Positions 2,842-10,345 of a stretch of DNA of 10,345 nt are shown piece after piece (the first letter of the stretch is position 1; the number at the start of each line of letters is the position of its first letter). The DNA is taken from the NCBI GenBank assembly GCA_030595135.1, contig JAUVDU010000030.1:1-10345 (forward strand). The letters run 5' to 3'. This DNA is from Deltaproteobacteria bacterium (GTDB lineage: Bacteria > Desulfobacterota > Anaeroferrophillalia > Anaeroferrophillales > Tharpellaceae). A model generated the notes under the pieces. That model was not told the origin of the DNA, ran no database searches, and saw only the letters and a list, made by a program, of their open reading frames with translations. The position numbers were made by a program, and so were the translations under genes.

Positions 2842-2996
2842 TCTCTTTCTCCTGATTTCTTTGTTTTGATTCCCTTTGTCTTGCCTTTTTTTCAGCTCCA
2901 TGTCAATAATCTTTTGCTATCAAGTGGCAAGCGTGATACAAAAGCGAATCAAAATTTAAGCAAGACAATAACTATATTTTGCAGGAGTTGAAGGAT
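2842..2996. promoter_or_regulatory. Divergent intergenic region with weak promoter candidates
   Basis: This 155-base gap separates the minus-strand FAH unit from the plus-strand dfsP operon, so it must hold promoters for both. For the minus strand a perfect TTGACA (2901-2906) is present, but the hexamer 17 bases away, CAAGAC, is a poor -10. For the plus strand TATATT (2973-2978) could be a -10 without a clear -35; GGAG (2984-2987) and AAGGAT then lead to the ATG at 2997. No convincing operator or riboswitch is seen. Confidence 0.3.
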
Positions 2997-3659
2997 ATGA
3001 CAGATAAATGCACTCACGATTCGATTCAGCGGGTTGTGGTTTTTCAGGAGCGGGGTAGCGGCGAAAAAAAGATTGCCGGAATTGAACTCTATGCCCCGGG
3101 CCGTTTTGAACTTGATGTGATTTCGATTGATGAACCTTTACCCTCTTTGCTCGATGATCCGGAAAATTACCTGCCGACCGAATTGAAGGCCGATCTGGTG
3201 CTCGATTTTTTGCGCCATCCCGATTTGGCGGCCGAGCTTTTACGTCGTTGTCAGGAGGCGAAGATCCCTTTAGTGGCGACGACCAAGAAATATCCGGCGA
3301 GTCCGCTGGTGGCGACGCCACCGATATGATGTTCTCTGCCCCGGCTGGTCTGGCTGGGTGAGTATGGTGAACGTTACGGTACCCCTGAACTCGAGGTTGA
3401 GGTTGAGGATGGTAAGTTGAAGTCAATAAAGGTCTTGCGTGGGGCTCCCTGTGGGGCGACCTGGCGGGCTCTGGAGAAATTGATTGGTATGGAGGCTTCT
3501 GAAGTCGCTACCCGTTATGGTCTCGATGTTCAATTTAATTGCAGTGCCGATCCCGCCGGTTGGGATCCGCTCTGGGGCAAAAGTCCGGTGCATCTGGCCG
3601 CCGATATGCATTTTAAGGCTCTACAGCGAGCCTTAAAAGATATCGAAGAGAAAAAGTGA
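2997..3659 (+). CDS. dfsP: DUF166 family selenoprotein (DfsP-like), in-frame UGA = Sec111
   Basis: This is read as one 220-residue protein through an in-frame TGA at 3327-3329. Before the TGA it shows VVVFQERGSGEKKIAGI, DVISIDEPLPSLLDDPENYLP, ADLVLDFLRHPDLA and ATPPI. The frame then continues as Sec-Cys-SLPRLVWLGEYGERYG, LRGAPCGATW and FNCSADPAGWDPLWGKSPVH to the true stop. These blocks belong to DUF166, where I recall a CysCys pair after the TPP motif; here it is Sec111-Cys112. I also recall the NCBI family name DfsP (DUF166 family selenoprotein). Further cysteines (C152 in APCGATW, C182 in FNCSADP) suggest redox or metal chemistry, but no function is known. The start is the ATG at 2997, with GGAG upstream; a TTG at 2979 is less likely. 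A SECIS-like hairpin follows the TGA. The gene is coupled to the next by TGATG. A plain nonsense mutation is the alternative. Confidence 0.85.
3334..3362 (+). promoter_or_regulatory. Candidate bacterial SECIS hairpin
   Basis: A hairpin directly downstream of the TGA: CUC (3334-3336) pairs with GAG (3360-3362), CC (3339-3340) with GG (3356-3357), and CCGG (3341-3344) with CUGG (3350-3353), leaving the loop CUGGU (3345-3349). The GGU lies 17 bases after the UGA; in E. coli fdhF the loop GGU lies 18 bases after its UGA, and both continue as GGUCUG. Position and loop therefore fit a SelB-binding SECIS. The pairing was drawn by eye and contains internal loops. Confidence 0.6.
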
Positions 3660-5071
3660 TGGTAGACGTGGGTGATTACAACGTAAAATTTGCGCCCCTG
3701 GCTGAGCGTATGCGGCAAGCCGGGATGCCGCAATTGGCTGTCGAAACTCTAGGGCTCTATTTTTCCCGCTTGTTGGCGGGAGAGAGTGGCGAAATTGCGG
3801 AGAGTGAGCTTGAACCGGTAGCCGGACTTCCTGATGCCGAACAACTCGATGATGAGTGTGCCGTGATTGGTCGGCAGGTGCTGTCTGAGACGGTTTTGAT
3901 TAAATTAAATGGTGGTCTCGGCACCAGTATGGGGTTAGAGCGGGCAAAATCATTGCTGGTCGTTAAAGAGGGTTTGACCTTTCTCGATATTATTGCTCGT
4001 CAGGCTTTGGCCGCCAAGGTTCCGCTGCTGCTCATGAACAGTTTTGCCACGCGCAAAGATTCACTGGCTCTGCTTGATAACTATCCGGAGCTTTTGAACT
4101 TCGGCCTGCCGCGTGATTTTCTGCAGCATAAAATACCTAAGATTTGCCGGGAAACTCTGTTGCCGGTTACTTATTCTGCGGCGCCCGAATTGGAGTGGTG
4201 CCCTCCGGGGCATGGCGATCTCTATCCGGCCTTAGTCACCAGTGGGGTTTTAAAATCCTTAAGAAGCGCTGGCTACCGTTACGCCTTTGTCAGTAATGCT
4301 GATAATCTTGGAGCCGTACTCGATCCCGCCATTCTTGGCTATTTTGTTCGGGAGAAATCGCCCTTTATGATGGAAGTTGCCGATCGTACCGCAGCCGACC
4401 GCAAAGGTGGTCACCTGGCCCGGCGCCGCCTGGATGGCGGCCTGCTCCTGCGCGAAGCTGCTCAATGTCCGATTATTGAGCGGGACGCCTTTCAGGATAC
4501 CGAGCGTTATCGTTATTTTAACACCAACTCTTTGTGGCTTGATCTGGTGGCGCTGGAGAAAAAAATGGCCGACTGCAGTAATCTTCTGGAGTTACCTTTG
4601 ATCTGTAATCGTAAACCGGTCGATCCTCGCAACCCTGAATCGACTCCGGTTTTTCAACTTGAGACCGCCATGGGGGCGGCAATCGGCGTTTTTGCCGGAG
4701 CTCAGGCTTTAAGGGTGCCGCGGCGGCGTTTTGCCCCGGTCAAAACCACCGACGATCTCCTGGTGGTGCGCTCCGATGCTTATCTTCTCAAAGAAGATTA
4801 TACTGTGACTTTGGCATCTGATGCCGGGAGCGGGCCGGTTGTCAGCCTCGATCCTCTCTTCTATCGTCTGGTTGATGATTTTGAACAACATTTTCCGGCG
4901 GGAGCGCCCTCTCTTATTGAGTGTAAATCTTTGCAGATCAAAGGTGATATCACCTTTTCGCAAAAGATCTCCATTAAAGGGCGGGTGAAACTTGTAAATG
5001 AAGGGTCGCAGCCGTTGACGTTGCCGGCGGGTCTCGCGATCTCCGCAGATGTCGAAAAGGAATTTGTTTAA
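3659..5071 (+). CDS. UTP-glucose-1-phosphate uridylyltransferase, eukaryote-type (UDPGP family)
   Basis: This 470-residue cytosolic enzyme should make UDP-glucose and pyrophosphate from UTP and glucose-1-phosphate, the entry to glycan, glycogen or exopolysaccharide synthesis. Motifs in order: LIKLNGGLGTSMG (80-92, nucleotide-binding loop), LMNSFATRKDS (125-135), EWCPPGHGDLYP (179-190), FVSNADNLGA (210-219), FNTNSLW (287-293) and RRFAPVKTTDDLL (356-368). A beta-helix-like C-terminal domain covers about 395-470. This is the UDPGP family of eukaryotes and some bacteria, unrelated in close sequence to bacterial GalU. The start is the ATG at 3659, sharing its A with the dfsP stop (TGATG); a GTG one codon earlier is possible. 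The stop overlaps the next start as TAATG. Within the UDPGP family, UDP-N-acetylhexosamine pyrophosphorylases are the alternative, but the LNGGLGTSMG form favours UDP-glucose. Confidence 0.92.
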   Translation: MVDVGDYNVKFAPLAERMRQAGMPQLAVETLGLYFSRLLAGESGEIAESELEPVAGLPDAEQLDDECAVIGRQVLSETVLIKLNGGLGTSMGLERAKSLLVVKEGLTFLDIIARQALAAKVPLLLMNSFATRKDSLALLDNYPELLNFGLPRDFLQHKIPKICRETLLPVTYSAAPELEWCPPGHGDLYPALVTSGVLKSLRSAGYRYAFVSNADNLGAVLDPAILGYFVREKSPFMMEVADRTAADRKGGHLARRRLDGGLLLREAAQCPIIERDAFQDTERYRYFNTNSLWLDLVALEKKMADCSNLLELPLICNRKPVDPRNPESTPVFQLETAMGAAIGVFAGAQALRVPRRRFAPVKTTDDLLVVRSDAYLLKEDYTVTLASDAGSGPVVSLDPLFYRLVDDFEQHFPAGAPSLIECKSLQIKGDITFSQKISIKGRVKLVNEGSQPLTLPAGLAISADVEKEFV

Positions 5072-6597
5072 TGGCTGATTCTTCGCTGGTCTACTTTACG
5101 GCGCTGGCCAAGATCGCTCAGCTTCTGGCCGGGGAGAGTGATTTTCAGAGTACCATGGAGACAATTTTAGTGCGTCTGGCCCGGTTGACCGGCATGAAGC
5201 GAGGCATGATTTCGCTCTATCGCCGCGACCTTGAACAGATTCATGTCGATATTACGTATGGTATTCCTGATACCTCGGAGCCGGTTTTCTATCGTTTAGG
5301 CGAAGGCATTACCGGTCGGGTGGTGGCTACGGGGCGGCCGATTGCGATTCCTCGCCTTGATCAGGAACCGCTTTTTCTCGATCGTTCCGGGGCGCGGCGG
5401 GAGATTGATCGTTCAACTTTGGCTTTTCTCTGTGTGCCGATTAAATTTGCCGGTCAAACCGTGGGGGCACTTTCAGTCGATCGGGCGGCCAAGGGGGTTG
5501 ATCTGCCGGGTGAACTCGCCTTTCTTGAGGTCGTGGCTAATCTTTTAGCGCCACGGGTTCATGTTCGCCGGGTACAGGACGAAAATACCCGCTTGCGTGA
5601 AGCTATCGGTCGGCATGGGCCGCTGGGAACCGTGGTTGGTAATGCTAATTCGATGCGTCTGGTGGCTGAACAGATCGATCAGGTTGCGCAGACTATGACG
5701 ACGGTTCTGATCACCGGTGAAACCGGGACCGGAAAAGGTTTGGTTGCCAGTGAGATTCACTATCGCAGTCCGCGGCGTGATCAGCCGATGGTTCGGCTTG
5801 ATTGTGGGGCGATTCCTGAGAATCTGGTCGAGAGTGAAATTTTTGGCCATCAGAAAGGGGCTTTTACCGGAGCTATCGAAAAGCGTATCGGTAAGTTTGA
5901 ATTGGCTCAGGGGAGTACTATCTTTCTTGACGAGATTGGTGAACTTCCCCTCGCTTCTCAGGTTAAACTCCTGCGAGTTCTGGAGGAGCGTGAGTTTGAA
6001 CGGGTCGGCGGCGGCAAAACCATTAAAACCGATGCCCGGGTTATTATCGCAACCAATCGCGATCTGGAAAAAGAGGTTGCCGCCGGTCGCTTTCGTTCCG
6101 ATCTTTTCTATCGCTTAAGTGTTTTTCCCATCCATTTGCCGCCTTTACGTGAGCGTGGGGCCGATATTATTCTGCTTGCCGATCTCTTTGTTCATAATCT
6201 GGGTGAAAAAATGGGTTGTAAAATCTCTCGAATCGACTCCTCGGCCCTTGACCTGCTTATCTCCTATCACTGGCCGGGAAACGTTCGCGAACTCCAAAAC
6301 GCTCTTGAGCGGGCCATGATTCTGGCCACCGACGGTATTATTCACGGCTATCAGTTGCCGCCTTCACTCCAGGCCGCTGCAGCGGGCGATGAGGGTGATT
6401 CGGGAGGGGAGATCGGGGCCACTTTTCAGGCCATGGTCAATGCTTACGAGACCACCTTGATTGTCGAAGCCTTGAAAAAAACTCAAGGTAACCAGACTAA
6501 AGCGGCAAAACTTCTGAGAACCACCAAACGGGTGATTCAATACAAGATTGCTAATCATAATATCAACTATAAGAAATACAGTGGTGTTAAGGTGTGA
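5071..6597 (+). CDS. NifA-like sigma-54 dependent activator (GAF-AAA+-Fis HTH)
   Basis: This 508-residue cytosolic enhancer-binding protein should use ATP to remodel sigma-54 RNA polymerase. Domains: a GAF sensor (about 20-160), a short coil linker, an AAA+ domain (about 183-410) and a Fis-type HTH (about 465-498). Visible AAA+ parts are Walker A GETGTGKG (216-223), the sigma-54 contact GAFTGA (263-268), Walker B TIFLDEIGE (283-291), ATNR (327-330), arginine fingers in RFRSDLFYRL (340-349) and WPGNVRELQN (401-410). The residue after the Walker lysine is Gly where these activators usually have Glu. The HTH (GNQTKAAKLLRTTKRVIQYK) resembles NifA of Desulfobacterota. There is no Cys motif in the linker, so it is not the oxygen-sensitive rhizobial type. 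It is translationally coupled on both sides and lies upstream of a sigma-54 amtB promoter. The targets are inferred; a regulator of polysaccharide genes is an alternative. Confidence 0.9.
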   Translation: MADSSLVYFTALAKIAQLLAGESDFQSTMETILVRLARLTGMKRGMISLYRRDLEQIHVDITYGIPDTSEPVFYRLGEGITGRVVATGRPIAIPRLDQEPLFLDRSGARREIDRSTLAFLCVPIKFAGQTVGALSVDRAAKGVDLPGELAFLEVVANLLAPRVHVRRVQDENTRLREAIGRHGPLGTVVGNANSMRLVAEQIDQVAQTMTTVLITGETGTGKGLVASEIHYRSPRRDQPMVRLDCGAIPENLVESEIFGHQKGAFTGAIEKRIGKFELAQGSTIFLDEIGELPLASQVKLLRVLEEREFERVGGGKTIKTDARVIIATNRDLEKEVAAGRFRSDLFYRLSVFPIHLPPLRERGADIILLADLFVHNLGEKMGCKISRIDSSALDLLISYHWPGNVRELQNALERAMILATDGIIHGYQLPPSLQAAAAGDEGDSGGEIGATFQAMVNAYETTLIVEALKKTQGNQTKAAKLLRTTKRVIQYKIANHNINYKKYSGVKV

Positions 6598-7595
6598 TGT
6601 ATAGTTTTTGTCAAGTTCTTGTTTTTTTCTTGCTTTATTCGTTTCTGGTGGGTCTGGGGATCTTTTTTTACCTTTGGCGCCGTCGTGAGAAAGAGGACAC
6701 CCTTGTCTTTGCTAGGGATAAAGTTGTTGAGTTTATTGATGATGCCGTGATTGCGCTTGACCGGCAACTGAGAATTGTCGATGTTAATCCGGCGGCCCAA
6801 AATCTACTCTCTTCTTCGGGTAAGTCGATGGTCGGGGTTTTAGTGCAGGAATTTTTGCCAGCCTCTTATGATTTTGGCCAACTGCTTGCGGATGCTGAAA
6901 ATCGTCAGGTGGAGATGGATCTGACCCTTGCCGGTGGGCGACAGGCCATTTTTGATCTGCGTATCTCCAAGCTTCGTAAGCCGAGCCGGGAATGGGTTGG
7001 AATTTTGATTGTGGCTCGGGATGTGAGTGAACGGGTGGATATGGTTGATGATCGGGAGCGGATGATTCTTGATCTGGAGGAGGCTAAAACCGAGCTTACC
7101 CGGTGGGCGAATTTTGATTTTTTGACGGAAATCTATAGTCGGCGCTATTTTATCGAGGTGGCGGGGAAGGAGTTGGTTCGTTCTTTGCGTTATCGGCGTC
7201 CACTTTCCTTGATTATGATGGATGTCGATCATTTTAAAGTGGTTAACGATACCTTTGGTCACGAGGCTGGTGACCGGGTTCTTTTTGCGGTTGCCCGGGC
7301 AATCAAGACGGATCTGCGCCAGATTGATATTCCGGCTCGTTTTGGCGGCGAGGAGTTTATTGTTCTTCTGCCTGAATCGAATCGGGAACAGGCTCGGTTA
7401 ACGGCTGAAAAGATACGCTCAACAATTGCCGAATTGAAATTTGAAGACCTCAATCCCGGTTTCAGGTTGACCATCAGCCTTGGGGTTGCCGGGAAGTCTG
7501 CGGATGATGTGAGTAGTTTAAGTGATCTGCTCAGGCTGGCCGATACGGCACTTTATGCCGCAAAAAAGGCGGGGCGTAACTGTGTGCGGTCATGA
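6597..7595 (+). CDS. Membrane-anchored PAS-GGDEF diguanylate cyclase
   Basis: This 332-residue protein should make cyclic di-GMP from two GTP at the inner membrane. One N-terminal membrane helix (about 7-27) ends in WRRR, giving a cytoplasmic body. A PAS domain follows (about 40-145: VEFIDDAVIALDRQLRIVDV ... IVARDVSER), then a coil (150-172) and the GGDEF domain (about 172-330). The active-site motif is RFGGEEF (248-254), with MDVDHFKVVNDTFGHEAGD (208-226) as metal and substrate loop. An RxxD inhibitory site, RQID (241-244), lies five residues before GGEEF, so product inhibition is expected. The first GGDEF block reads DFLTEIYSRRYF where DPLTGLxNRR is usual. The start is the ATG at 6597 overlapping the activator's stop (TGATG); a GTG at 6594 is possible. 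There is no EAL domain. The ligand of PAS is unknown. Confidence 0.93.
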   Translation: MYSFCQVLVFFLLYSFLVGLGIFFYLWRRREKEDTLVFARDKVVEFIDDAVIALDRQLRIVDVNPAAQNLLSSSGKSMVGVLVQEFLPASYDFGQLLADAENRQVEMDLTLAGGRQAIFDLRISKLRKPSREWVGILIVARDVSERVDMVDDRERMILDLEEAKTELTRWANFDFLTEIYSRRYFIEVAGKELVRSLRYRRPLSLIMMDVDHFKVVNDTFGHEAGDRVLFAVARAIKTDLRQIDIPARFGGEEFIVLLPESNREQARLTAEKIRSTIAELKFEDLNPGFRLTISLGVAGKSADDVSSLSDLLRLADTALYAAKKAGRNCVRS

Positions 7596-7755
7596 TTGAG
7601 GGGTTGGGTTGTTTTTTTGTGTGAAAAACTGATTCATAAATGTGCCGATATGATGCGTGTTGTGCAACAAAAATGTATCTCTGGCTGTAAGTTGTTGAGA
7701 ATGTAGAATTTTTACGTGTTGAAAAAATTATCTGAGGGCCTTAGGCGTCTCTCTT
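7596..7755. other. Non-coding stretch after the cyclase gene
   Basis: I see no gene here. It is AT-rich with many TGTTG words. One perfect dyad, TGTTG-TG-CAACA (7658-7669), matches the half-sites of the dyad nearer amtB. A 13-base word, CATAAATGTGCCG (7635-7647), recurs at 7772-7784 inside the terminator stem. The classical NifA site TGT-N10-ACA was searched for by eye and not found between 7596 and 7892. Confidence 0.4.
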
Positions 7756-7795
7756 CAACGCAAAAACGGCACATAAATGTGCCGTTTTTGCGTTG
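7756..7795 (+). terminator. Rho-independent terminator, perfect 18-bp stem
   Basis: The left arm (7756-7773) and right arm (7778-7795) are perfect inverted copies around a TAAA loop. The core CGGCACA/TGTGCCG is followed by TTTTT, and the left arm has the mirrored AAAAA, so it could stop transcription in both directions. It ends the dfsP-to-cyclase operon about 160 bases after the last stop and insulates the sigma-54 promoter of amtB. Confidence 0.85.
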
Positions 7796-7823
7796 TGATA
7801 GGTGATGAAACGACTTCTTTGCC

Positions 7824-7860
7824 TGTTGTTGTGAACTCTTTATAATCAACAATAGCAACA
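7824..7860. promoter_or_regulatory. TGTTG/CAACA dyad, candidate activator site upstream of amtB
   Basis: Two overlapping TGTTG words (7824-7828, 7827-7831) face two CAACA words (7847-7851, 7856-7860), making an interrupted inverted repeat centred about 75 bases before the predicted amtB transcription start. This is a usual distance for an enhancer of a sigma-54 activator. It is neither the classical NifA (TGT-N10-ACA) nor the NtrC (GCAC-type) site, so the binding protein is unknown. Confidence 0.35.
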
Positions 7861-7892
7861 AATAATCTTTTTTATAAATTTATTTCAAGAAC

Positions 7893-7908
7893 TGGCACGC
7901 CCTCTGCT
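7893..7908 (+). promoter_or_regulatory. Sigma-54 promoter of amtB
   Basis: TGGCACGCCCTCTGCT matches the -24/-12 consensus TGGCACG-N4-TTGCT at every fixed position except one (C for the first T of TTGC). The GG and GC elements have the right spacing. Transcription should begin near 7919, leaving a leader of about 34 bases with AGGAG (7942-7946) before the ATG at 7953. Sigma-54 control of amtB-glnK is well established in other proteobacteria, so nitrogen regulation is expected. Confidence 0.88.
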
Positions 7909-7952
7909 TAAGGTGAGATGTTTAGTAATCTGAAAAAAATCAGGAGCGTGTC

Positions 7953-9317
7953 ATGAAAACTATAGGGATAAATTTTATTAAACATCTGCGGAACCCGTTG
8001 ATGGTCTTTCGGGTGCTGTTTTTTCTTCTGCTGTCGGCCGGAACCCTTCTCGCCGGCGAGGAAGCTGCAGCGATTGACACCGGTACCACGGCCTGGATGT
8101 TAACCTCGACAGCTCTGGTTTTGTTGATGGTTCCGGGGCTGGCAATGTTTTATGGTGGTTTGGTGCGAACCAAAAATGTGTTGGGAACGATGATGCACAG
8201 TTTTGCCGCTATGGGAATTATTGGAGTGTTGTGGGTGGTTCTCGGTTATTCAATGTCATTTGGTAAAGGGGTGTTGGGGGGCTGGTGCGGCTGGAATCCT
8301 GACTACTTTCTTTTGCGGGGCATTGATGATGTGATTCTGGAATGCGGCGTGCCGGAGTATGTTTTTGCGATGTTTCAAGGGAAATTTGCGATCATCACAC
8401 CAGCTCTGATTGCCGGTGCTTTCGCCGAACGAGTTAGTTTTCGGGGTTATTGTCTCTATATTGTGCTCTGGAGTATCTTGATCTACAATCCGCTTTGTCA
8501 TTGGGTCTGGGCCTCGGATGGCTGGATTTTTAATCTTGGAGCCGACGGCGCAATTGATTTTGCCGGGGGTACGGTTGTCCATATCTCAGCCGGGGTCAGC
8601 GGTCTGGTCGCCGCTTTCTACTTAGGTTGTCGGCGCGGCTATCCGAGTACGGCGATGCACCCCAATAATTTGGTTATGACTTTAATGGGGGCTGGTCTTT
8701 TATGGGTTGGCTGGTTTGGCTTTAATGCCGGCAGTGCGGTCTCCAGTGGTCTGGATACGGCCAGAGCTCTGACCGTAACTCAGGTGGCGGCCGCCGCCGG
8801 AGCTACGGCTTGGCTGATCATTGAGGCTGTTCATCTGGGAAAAGCGACCACGTTGGGGCTTGTCAGCGGAATCTTAGCCGGTCTTGTCGTAATCACTCCG
8901 GCGGCCGGTGTGGTTAAGCCGGCGGGGGCCATTGTTCTCGGTATGAGCGCATCATTAGTTTGCTATCTTGGTCTTTTTCTCAAAGAGAAAATGGGTTACG
9001 ATGACAGCCTTGACGCTTTTGGTATTCATGGCGTCGCCGGAATCTTTGGGGCGTTGGCTCTGGTCTTCTTTGTTCGTGAAAGCTGGATGCAGGAAGCGGC
9101 AGCCGGGTTTGGTGCAAGCTGGAGTGTTGCCCAGCAGTTGCTGGTACAGTTTCAGGCTGTGGCCGCAACCATTCTTTATAGCGTAGTAGTTAGTGGCATC
9201 CTGATTGTCGTGGTCGAGAAAACCGTGGGTTTCCGTTTGTCGGAAAATGCTGAAAAGTCGGGAATGGATCATACCCTGCATGGCGAACACGGATATGGCC
9301 TAATAAATCTAAATTAA
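7953..9317 (+). CDS. amtB: Ammonium transporter AmtB
   Basis: This 454-residue inner-membrane channel of the Amt family should conduct ammonium into the cell, probably as a trimer gated by PII. A hydrophobic N-terminal segment ending around LLAGEE (20-37) looks like the cleaved signal of E. coli AmtB, followed by about 11 membrane helices. The key residues are present: twin pore histidines H210 (DFAGGTVVHISAG, with D202) and H359 (DAFGIHGVAG), gate phenylalanines F145 (FQGKF) and F257 (GWFGFNAGS, with S261), and W186 (HWVW) of the recruitment site. The cytosolic tail ends MDHTLHGEHGYGLINLN, similar in plan to tails that hold PII. It is driven by the sigma-54 promoter, ends in tandem stops (TAATAA), and is followed 15 bases later by the PII gene. 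Confidence 0.97.
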   Translation: MKTIGINFIKHLRNPLMVFRVLFFLLLSAGTLLAGEEAAAIDTGTTAWMLTSTALVLLMVPGLAMFYGGLVRTKNVLGTMMHSFAAMGIIGVLWVVLGYSMSFGKGVLGGWCGWNPDYFLLRGIDDVILECGVPEYVFAMFQGKFAIITPALIAGAFAERVSFRGYCLYIVLWSILIYNPLCHWVWASDGWIFNLGADGAIDFAGGTVVHISAGVSGLVAAFYLGCRRGYPSTAMHPNNLVMTLMGAGLLWVGWFGFNAGSAVSSGLDTARALTVTQVAAAAGATAWLIIEAVHLGKATTLGLVSGILAGLVVITPAAGVVKPAGAIVLGMSASLVCYLGLFLKEKMGYDDSLDAFGIHGVAGIFGALALVFFVRESWMQEAAAGFGASWSVAQQLLVQFQAVAATILYSVVVSGILIVVVEKTVGFRLSENAEKSGMDHTLHGEHGYGLINLN

Positions 9318-9332
9318 TAAGTGGGGGATGAC

Positions 9333-9686
9333 ATGCAACTTGTGACGGCGATAATCCAGCCGGATAAGCTGGATGAAGTAAGGGAAGAGTTGGTTGTGGC
9401 CGGCATCACCCGGATTACGACCAGCCGGGTGACCGGACATGGTCAACATCAAGATCAACACGACAGTGAACGTCTCTATCGGGGACAGAAAGTGATGCCT
9501 AATTTGTTGCCTAAGGTGAGGATTGACATCGCTTGTAACGACGAGTTTGTTGATGTCGCGATAGAAGCAATTTTACGTTCGGCCAAACACGGCGATGGCC
9601 GGATCGGTGACGGTAAGATTTTTGTCACCGAATTGAAGCGTTGTATTCGGATCCGGACGGACGAGAGTGGTAGCCAGGCGATTTAA
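9333..9686 (+). CDS. glnK: PII signal protein, GlnK-like, lacking the uridylylation tyrosine
   Basis: This 117-residue cytosolic trimer should sense 2-oxoglutarate, ATP and ADP and dock on AmtB. PII marks: MQLVTAIIQPDKLDEVREEL at the N terminus, LLPKVRI (with K61 matching K58 of E. coli GlnB), the B-loop GRIGDGKIFV (89-98) and RCIRIRTDE near the end. The T-loop (about 35-60) is three residues longer than in E. coli and rich in His and Gln (GHGQHQDQHDSERLYRG). Tyr49 matches Tyr46, but the position of the uridylylated Tyr51 is Val54, so GlnD-type modification at that residue is not possible. The B-loop carries two extra residues (HGDGR). The start is the ATG at 9333, the usual family start, with GGGGGA just before; a GTG at 9321 would add MGDD. 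It sits between two ammonium-channel genes. Confidence 0.94.
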   Translation: MQLVTAIIQPDKLDEVREELVVAGITRITTSRVTGHGQHQDQHDSERLYRGQKVMPNLLPKVRIDIACNDEFVDVAIEAILRSAKHGDGRIGDGKIFVTELKRCIRIRTDESGSQAI

Positions 9687-9749
9687 CTGCAATAGTGTAT
9701 TGTTGATAAAATAGAACTTTTAACGTAAACCAAGGAGATAGCTCTTTTC

Positions 9750-10345
9750 ATGAATAAAACTCACTCATTTCTAAAATTATTTGCGGTCTTGGCAGCTTTT
9801 TTTTTGTTTACCGGGATTGCCGGAGCCACTGAGTTAGATCAGATTGTCGATGTCCAAAAATACAATCGTGCCATACATATAATGGCAATGCTTTTAGCCG
9901 GTTTTGGCTTTCTTATGGTATTTGTAAAAAAATATGGGCGGTCGGCCGCAACCGCAACCTATCTTTTGGTCAGTGTTGCGATTCCTCTCTATATTTTAAA
10001 GGATAGTTTTGGCGTCCTGGGTGGTTCAGGCTCAGAAATTGACAGTCTTATTCTTGCTGAGTTTGCTGCGGCAAGCCTGCTTATCTGTGCCGGTGCCCCT
10101 CTCGGCAGGTTGAAAATGGGTCAGTATATTTTTCTCGGTTTACTATTTATACCCTGCTATGCGTTTAACGAATGGCTTCTCCTTGATAACGGTTTTGGGT
10201 TAATACCTTCCGGTGCATTTATCGATACTGGAGGGTCGATTGTTATCCATGCTTTCGGTGCCCTCTTTGGGCTTGGCGTGATAATGACGATGACGACCAA
10301 AGAAGAGATCGATTTGCCGGTTGAAGCAGATTTTACCAGCGACCG
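9750..10345 (+). CDS. Rh-type ammonium channel (partial, N-terminal 198 residues)
   Basis: This is the first half of a membrane protein of the Amt/Rh superfamily, cut by the window end. A signal-like hydrophobic N terminus (LKLFAVLAAFFLFTGIAGA) is followed by AIHIMAMLLAGFGFLMVFVKKYG (split about 41-63), AEFAAASLLICAGAPLGRL (103-121) and AFNEW, then FIDTGGSIVIHAFGALFGLG (157-176). The last block has D159 and the first pore histidine H167. The pattern of FLMxFxKKYG, AxF-xAASLL and DxGGSxxIHxFGAxFGL is that of Rh50/Rh proteins and not of AmtB. Rh channels pass NH3 or CO2-related gases or methylammonium in other organisms. AGGAGA (9733-9738) precedes the ATG by about 11 bases. No terminator or sigma-54 site lies in the 63-base gap after the PII gene, so cotranscription with amtB is likely. 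Confidence 0.85.
   Translation, partial: MNKTHSFLKLFAVLAAFFLFTGIAGATELDQIVDVQKYNRAIHIMAMLLAGFGFLMVFVKKYGRSAATATYLLVSVAIPLYILKDSFGVLGGSGSEIDSLILAEFAAASLLICAGAPLGRLKMGQYIFLGLLFIPCYAFNEWLLLDNGFGLIPSGAFIDTGGSIVIHAFGALFGLGVIMTMTTKEEIDLPVEADFTSD

Follow-up and report, generated by a model that had tools for sequence, protein, structure and literature searches.

An in-frame UGA in the DUF166 family gene dfsP of a Candidatus Tharpella lineage bacterium, almost certainly a selenocysteine codon

Introduction

The gene dfsP (2997..3659, + strand), encoding a protein of the DUF166 family, lies in the window analysed here, a stretch of 10,345 nucleotides from contig C329 of a draft genome of 2.18 Mb that is 70.5% complete. 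A single frame runs from the ATG at 2997 to the TGA at 3657-3659, and contains on the way a further TGA at 3327-3329 followed at once by TGT at 3330-3332. The question is whether this is a broken gene or one in which the internal UGA has a meaning of its own. Comparison of dfsP with its relatives indicates, with very little room for doubt, that the UGA at 3327 is decoded as selenocysteine (Sec), to give a DUF166 family selenoprotein of 220 residues with Sec at 111. What such a protein might do is the second question, to which conserved residues and genomic company supply hints.

Results and discussion

The reading frame of dfsP

Ahead of the TGA at 3327 the frame has 110 codons, and beyond it 109 up to the final stop, which is itself TGA. 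Translation places Sec111-Cys112 (3327..3329 and 3330..3332, + strand) directly after the residues TPPI, and shows the conserved blocks APCGATW and DPAGWDPLWGKSPVH in the protein. A preliminary description of the window had proposed that both halves share one frame with 109 stop-free codons after the TGA, that these blocks lie downstream and that a Sec-Cys pair follows TPPI in a product of 220 residues; all this is borne out by the translation. The family name DfsP that it had given also proved correct, the read-through protein matching the NCBIfam model NF041372 over its full length at 318.3 bits (curated cut-off 200). Each half alone matches the same model, on the adjoining profile stretches 1-98 and 101-203. 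DUF166 (PF02593; 155.5 bits against a gathering threshold of 24.4) is the sole Pfam family above cut-off for the protein.

The best full-length named relative is that of Candidatus Tharpella aukensis (L034), at 92% identity, although records very near the window were possibly excluded; a partial relative, L044, has 96% identity across residues 55-219. We infer that the organism belongs to the Candidatus Tharpella lineage. The DNA beyond the TGA evolves as coding DNA, and is more constrained than the 5' part of the gene. For a codon-by-codon comparison of the window's dfsP, 11 relatives were used, namely the 12 near named loci L034-L045 apart from the incomplete L044; past the TGA the gene showed 394 synonymous and 122 non-synonymous differences in 1133 codons, against 347 and 252 in 1089 codons ahead of it.

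Conservation of the UGA

Species genomes were searched with the family alignment, and the best 80 of the 264 relatives found were kept (the named loci). A set of 94 is completed by 14 loci from a search of 16 Tharpellaceae genomes. These include the window's own locus, and among the remaining 13 there are 12 that share identity and score with a named locus and so come from the same species or nearly so. A protein search gave 580 homologues, of which 120, with lengths of 205 to 274 residues, are listed. Across the 94 loci codon 111 is TGA in 75, TGC in 13 and TGT in six (61 TGA and 19 Cys codons among the named loci), and codon 112 is TGC or TGT in every one. Residue 111 is Cys in 117 of the 120 listed homologues and Trp in the other three; Cys112 is invariant. 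The TGA therefore falls at the column of a CysCys pair in the family, as the preliminary description had proposed. In the 16 genomes of the window's family a dfsP match was found in 14, every one with exactly one internal TGA; the two genomes that gave no match are 63% and 78% complete. A TGA present in all 14 family matches and in 61 of the 80 named loci is not a one-off, and its recurrence goes far beyond chance.

In a quick tree built from the 80 named proteins with residue 111 masked, Sec and Cys have been exchanged at least nine times, four of these switches being forced by starred branches. Two copies of DfsP, one with Sec and the other with Cys, occur in a single Desulfobacterium genome (LT984854.1; L062, L085).

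A SECIS hairpin downstream of the UGA

The predicted upper stem-loop of a bacterial Sec insertion sequence (SECIS) lies at 3340..3358 (+ strand), with seven pairs (3340-3346 with 3352-3358) closing a loop of five nucleotides, GGUCU (3347-3351), at a distance of 17 nt from the UGA. The whole predicted hairpin starts at the UGA (3327..3376, + strand) and folds with -18.7 kcal/mol over 50 nt (z -2.37), which four of 200 shuffles equalled. The bacterial SECIS model, as set out in passages of a 2026 review, has an apical loop of 3-9 nt, an upper stem of 4-16 bp, a G within the first two loop positions, mostly then G or U, a gap of 16-37 nt between UGA and loop, and an energy of -7.5 kcal/mol or lower (PMC13188914); an excerpt of an earlier paper likewise places a guanosine in the small apical loop (PMC1088965). 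The hairpin of the window agrees with the model in loop and stem size, in the loop GG, in the spacing from the UGA and in energy.

The relatives supply a more searching comparison, made with 59 distinct TGA sequences (62 loci) and 17 distinct Cys sequences (19 loci), and with the U of UGA counted as position 1. A loop GG at positions 21-22 occurs in 59 of 59 TGA sequences and in four of 17 Cys sequences. The seven pairs from 13-32 to 19-26 are formed in 368 of the 413 cells of the TGA set, where 2000 column shuffles gave a mean of 338.6 and a maximum of 352, and where sliding the partner by one to three positions left at most 277 cells paired. In the Cys set the same stem is paired in 81 of 119 cells, a value matched by 282 of 2000 shuffles and so not above them. 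In the Tharpella group (12 distinct sequences) the stem is offset by one, with 83 of 84 cells paired, and the other 47 TGA sequences keep the first register in 310 of 329 cells; when the better of the two registers is taken, six or seven of the seven pairs are formed in 56 of 59 TGA sequences against five of 17 Cys sequences. Mean fold energies also differ (-15.3 for TGA loci and -12.5 for Cys loci, P 0.001 with kinship ignored). Codon 7, numbered from the UGA as the first, has a final G in all 59 TGA sequences (44 CAG, 14 CTG and one CCG) but in only five of the 17 Cys sequences, which suggests that this G is kept by the RNA and not by the protein. At the tree neighbours L052 (5335-5394, TGT) and L069 (8322-8381, TGA) the stem-loop is identical base for base, L052 being a gene that switched from Sec to Cys recently and retains the hairpin as a relic; a figure legend in PMC1794560 describes remnant hairpins of this kind.

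Genes for selenocysteine insertion

The genome contains a whole selA (598.5 bits, cut-off 267.9) and a gene for tRNA-Sec, selC (69.7 bits, gathering score 47), which ARAGORN also calls, with the anticodon tca. The start of selB was found as a frame of 113 residues that runs off a contig end and covers the first 104 of 581 positions of the model; its 163.8 bits stay below the cut-off of 242.25 because the contig end cuts the gene, and SelB is the best NCBIfam model for the fragment, with 164.1 bits against 97.8 for the next. Since selA is present in 275 of 297 genomes of the phylum, it is uninformative as a discriminator. Among the 16 genomes of the family selB exceeds its cut-off in 13 and selD also in 13; the window's genome does so for neither. 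Of the 13 family matches to selD that exceed the cut-off (L241, L242 and others), 12 hold one in-frame TGA, and the thirteenth is a piece without the first 88 positions; SelD is probably itself a selenoprotein in this family. Thus, among the Sec genes for which the preliminary description had proposed a search, selA, tRNA-Sec and the beginning of selB, as a fragment, were recovered, and selD was not detected over its cut-off in this incomplete assembly.

How the UGA is read

The process that we propose is that SelB and tRNA-Sec would read the UGA at 3327 as Sec, directed by the hairpin at 3340-3358, and that read-through would yield the 220-residue DfsP. Some findings weigh against this. In the 70.5%-complete assembly selB is only a fragment, and the best selD match of the genome reaches 55.1 bits where 125 are needed. 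An Rfam search of the whole window, with E values up to 1 allowed, was empty, and for that reason the hairpin was judged from relatives. The product of 220 residues is a prediction from sequence comparison.

The competing explanations fare far worse. A lone TGA in a draft assembly can in principle arise by sequencing error, and nothing else was found in favour of that or of a nonsense mutation in a decaying gene; but the same TGA stands in all 14 family matches and 61 of the 80 named loci, the sequence past it is under purifying selection and the SECIS is constrained, so that error or decay is next to impossible. Alternatively, the UGA might truly terminate translation and the 110-residue protein be the working product, at least under selenium shortage. 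Some termination at a Sec UGA is usual, and UGA also serves as a stop here, dfsP itself ending in TGA. Against this, the second half of the protein is the more constrained one and carries the invariant Cys152, Cys182 and His199, and the 120 listed Cys-type homologues span 205 to 274 residues, which makes a functional stop extremely improbable. The Trp found at column 111 in three of the 120 listed homologues might hint at a changed genetic code in which UGA means Trp or another residue; the simplest account of these three rows is gene prediction under a code that takes UGA for Trp. All remaining rows have Cys in this column, dfsP uses TGA as its own stop, selA and tRNA-Sec are present and the hairpin goes with the TGA forms, and a recoded UGA is hardly conceivable here. 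The conserved TGA, the coding constraint downstream of it, the SECIS, and selA with tRNA-Sec all argue for a selenoprotein rather than a broken gene, as the preliminary description had held.

What was already recorded

The decoding of dfsP by Sec is near certain, yet it is not new and will not surprise a specialist. The class of the family had indeed been recorded, as the preliminary description supposed: the NCBIfam entry NF041372 is named "DUF166 family (seleno)protein DfsP", a name that itself allows Sec or Cys, and DUF166 is listed among selenoprotein families in the relevant passages of two reviews, as a prokaryotic family in one of 2022 (PMC9312934) and together with NF041372 in one of 2026 (PMC13188914), both citing Zhang and Gladyshev 2007. 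In those passages the DUF166 entries of both reviews carry no function, motif or SECIS for the family. The protein of the window, a full-length match to NF041372, differs from that entry in nothing that matters, and adds to it a Sec member from the Candidatus Tharpella lineage. The selenoprotein of 2007 reportedly came from an Olavius algarvensis symbiont. A literature search, mostly outside subscription journals, found nothing on DUF166 function, its SECIS or a tie to acetyl-CoA synthase, and no paper for PF02593; "DfsP" as a word gave only other subjects among the matches listed. What is new here is a set of hints on function, chiefly a probable four-residue core and a tie to one-carbon metabolism.

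Conserved residues

Six residues are invariant in the 120 listed homologues: Cys85, Cys112, Cys152, Cys182, His199 and His205. For a wider view, the 297 genomes of the phylum gave a DUF166 match in 65, of which 64 are over the cut-off, and the rows fetched from them comprise 47 DfsP-like rows (some being the same gene twice) and 16 classic DUF166 rows (duplicates removed). Cys152, in the APCGATW block (3450..3452, + strand), and His199 (3591..3593, + strand) are present in all 47 DfsP-like and all 16 classic rows, and Cys112 in all 47 and in 13 of 16, the other three being gaps. Cys182 (3540..3542, + strand) is kept in all 47 DfsP-like rows but in one of 16 classic rows; in 15 of the 16 its place is taken by Pro, and by eye the adjacent column holds a Cys. 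Position 111 separates the two sets: every one of the 47 DfsP-like rows has Cys or Sec there, and the classic rows have Phe (10), Leu (3) or a gap (3). His205 is found in one of the 16 classic rows. Cys85 (3249..3251, + strand), present in 41 of 47 DfsP-like rows, is invariant in close DfsP only. Classic DUF166 proteins thus have Cys112, Cys152, His199 and, as judged by eye, a Cys near 182 in common with DfsP, and differ from it in having no Sec or Cys at 111. The common core of DUF166 is probably Cys112, Cys152, Cys182 and His199, with Sec or Cys at 111 as the addition made by DfsP. Judging by their conservation, these four residues probably belong to a single site, for metal binding or redox chemistry, which DfsP would supplement with the selenol of Sec111, beside Cys112. 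A redox-active or metal-binding site, as suggested in the preliminary description, would fit this picture.

One subgroup of DfsP-like proteins (L180, L184, L186-L188 and L191-L194) keeps the Cys-Cys pair and has the ADPAGWDPLWGKSPVH block swapped for one of AKANPNVFLTNPLHVAGEVH type.

Links to one-carbon metabolism

CdhC, acetyl-CoA synthase, is present in 202 of the 297 genomes. It occurs in 59 of the 65 genomes that have DUF166 and in 143 of the 232 that lack it (Fisher P 2e-6). With CdhC matches limited to E 1e-30 or better the figures become 59 of 65 against 128 of 232 (P 3e-8) and, with the window's own family excluded as well, 53 of 56 against 128 of 232 (P 3e-9). All of these P values ignore kinship. 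Neighbours within 6.5 kb of dfsP were clustered over 81 loci, where contigs allow, and one representative was scanned per cluster. They include CdhD (seven loci), a gene resembling the methyltransferase of carbon monoxide dehydrogenase/acetyl-CoA synthase (CODH/ACS; seven loci, 206-208 bits, under its cut-offs), 5-formyltetrahydrofolate cyclo-ligase (six), a protein with flavin, iron-sulfur (Fe-S) and FlpD domains (10), molybdopterin oxidoreductases (12 and 13), a NuoF-like protein (11) and rubrerythrin (14). These neighbours occur chiefly in loci titled Desulfobulbaceae, Desulfofustis and similar, and those of Wood-Ljungdahl type are not independent because they come mostly from related organisms. 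Directly 5' of two distant DfsP-like genes stands a gene for a GTP cyclohydrolase of FolE2/MptA type (L179 4170-5114, - strand; L185 2242-3234, + strand), with gaps of 1 bp and 43 bp, respectively, to the matched DfsP-like part; of the two copies the one at L179 was scanned, and its score falls short of the NCBIfam cut-offs.

From this co-occurrence and these neighbours it is tempting to suggest, though only as a tentative possibility, that DfsP serves electron or metal handling in the one-carbon (Wood-Ljungdahl, pterin) metabolism of anaerobes. The disregard of kinship in the P values weighs against such a role, as do several features of the window's own lineage. CdhC was found neither in the genome of the window nor in two congeners that have dfsP, which with three others make up the six DUF166 genomes without a CdhC match; and the window contains none of the neighbours listed above, Wood-Ljungdahl and pterin genes included, those of its dfsP being a UTP-glucose-1-phosphate uridylyltransferase (UGPase), a sigma-54 regulator and ammonium transport genes.

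Candidate relatives and fold

Several of the listed homologues carry the source name thymidylate synthase, and the links to pterin genes might seem to agree with it. The 10 families listed for 40 members include no thymidylate synthase, however, DUF166 is the only family above cut-off for the window's protein, and the names look inherited, so that a thymidylate synthase activity is very improbable. A second proposal gives DUF166/DfsP an IscU-like domain at its C-terminal end and a role as metal-sulfur or metal-selenium scaffold or as maturation factor, in which Sec would be an acceptor or ligand. Strands and helices follow in a similar order in IscU/NifU_N, and a Cys stands at a turn from strand to helix, as judged by eye; there are also weak structure and profile matches, but a reversed-profile control scores equally high. 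With the full-length profile one decoy scored above IscU, the IscU structure rows tie with unrelated structures, and the Foldseek and VIA rows for the C-terminal half rest on a low-confidence model. Among 40 members none matched PF01592 (IscU/NifU_N) at E values up to 10, in a search whose filters discard most weak hits. An IscU-like fold of the C-terminal part is no more than a hint, and the scaffold role is doubtful. More unlikely still is the fuller picture of a two-domain DfsP with Rossmann-like and IscU-like halves, in which the four-residue core would be a metal or Fe-S site with Sec as an extra ligand or attacking group, and which would build or feed CODH/acetyl-CoA synthase or a reduced-pterin branch; if true, it would make DfsP a selenium-containing relative of the Fe-S scaffold fold.

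TSCPD (PF12637), with a similar Cys pattern by eye, was tried as a closer relative of the C-terminal part and rejected: its hhalign score was 10.1, 37 of 38 decoys scored at least as high, and only 12 of 30 fetched segments were usable. Among solved structures no sequence relative was found, the 20 rows for the protein being designed ankyrin repeats (best E 0.003), and the profile gave four rows at chance level. Three stretches of viral contigs matched in a scan with the DfsP protein, and none encodes a relative.

Gene neighbourhood

A likely ribosome binding site, AGGAG (2983..2987, + strand), was spotted by eye 9 bases 5' of the ATG of dfsP. The UGPase gene (3659..5071, + strand; PF01704, 389.2 bits) follows immediately, its ATG overlapping the dfsP stop, and the two genes are likely to be co-transcribed. 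Further 3', at 5071-10345, are genes for a sigma-54 activator with a GAF domain, a PAS-GGDEF protein and two ammonium transporters, between which sits a P-II gene. On the other side, a DUF1329 protein gene (643-2004, - strand; 482.5 bits, with a weak LolA-like match) is accompanied by an FAA hydrolase gene and a partial ETF gene.

A conserved operon for DfsP overall was considered and rejected: neighbour clusters vary by clade, and many contigs end nearby. Proteins of sigma-54 activator type (508 residues) form the largest cluster, found at 19 of 81 loci, of which the Tharpella group accounts for 12; clusters that lack any Tharpella locus reach at most 14 loci. A NifU-type gene shares its contig with dfsP in five genomes of the Tharpella family, at a distance of about 2 to 13 kb (G001:C70, G009:C9, G010:C12, G011:C28 and G015:C45).

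Significance

An ordinary-code gene caller would cut DfsP at 110 residues; the gene that looks broken is intact. With the correct reading, which is useful for annotation, DUF166 joins the known selenoproteins of the Candidatus Tharpella lineage. Interest now centres on the function of DUF166/DfsP, for which the company that DUF166 keeps with acetyl-CoA synthase, together with the core residues listed above, offers a testable lead.
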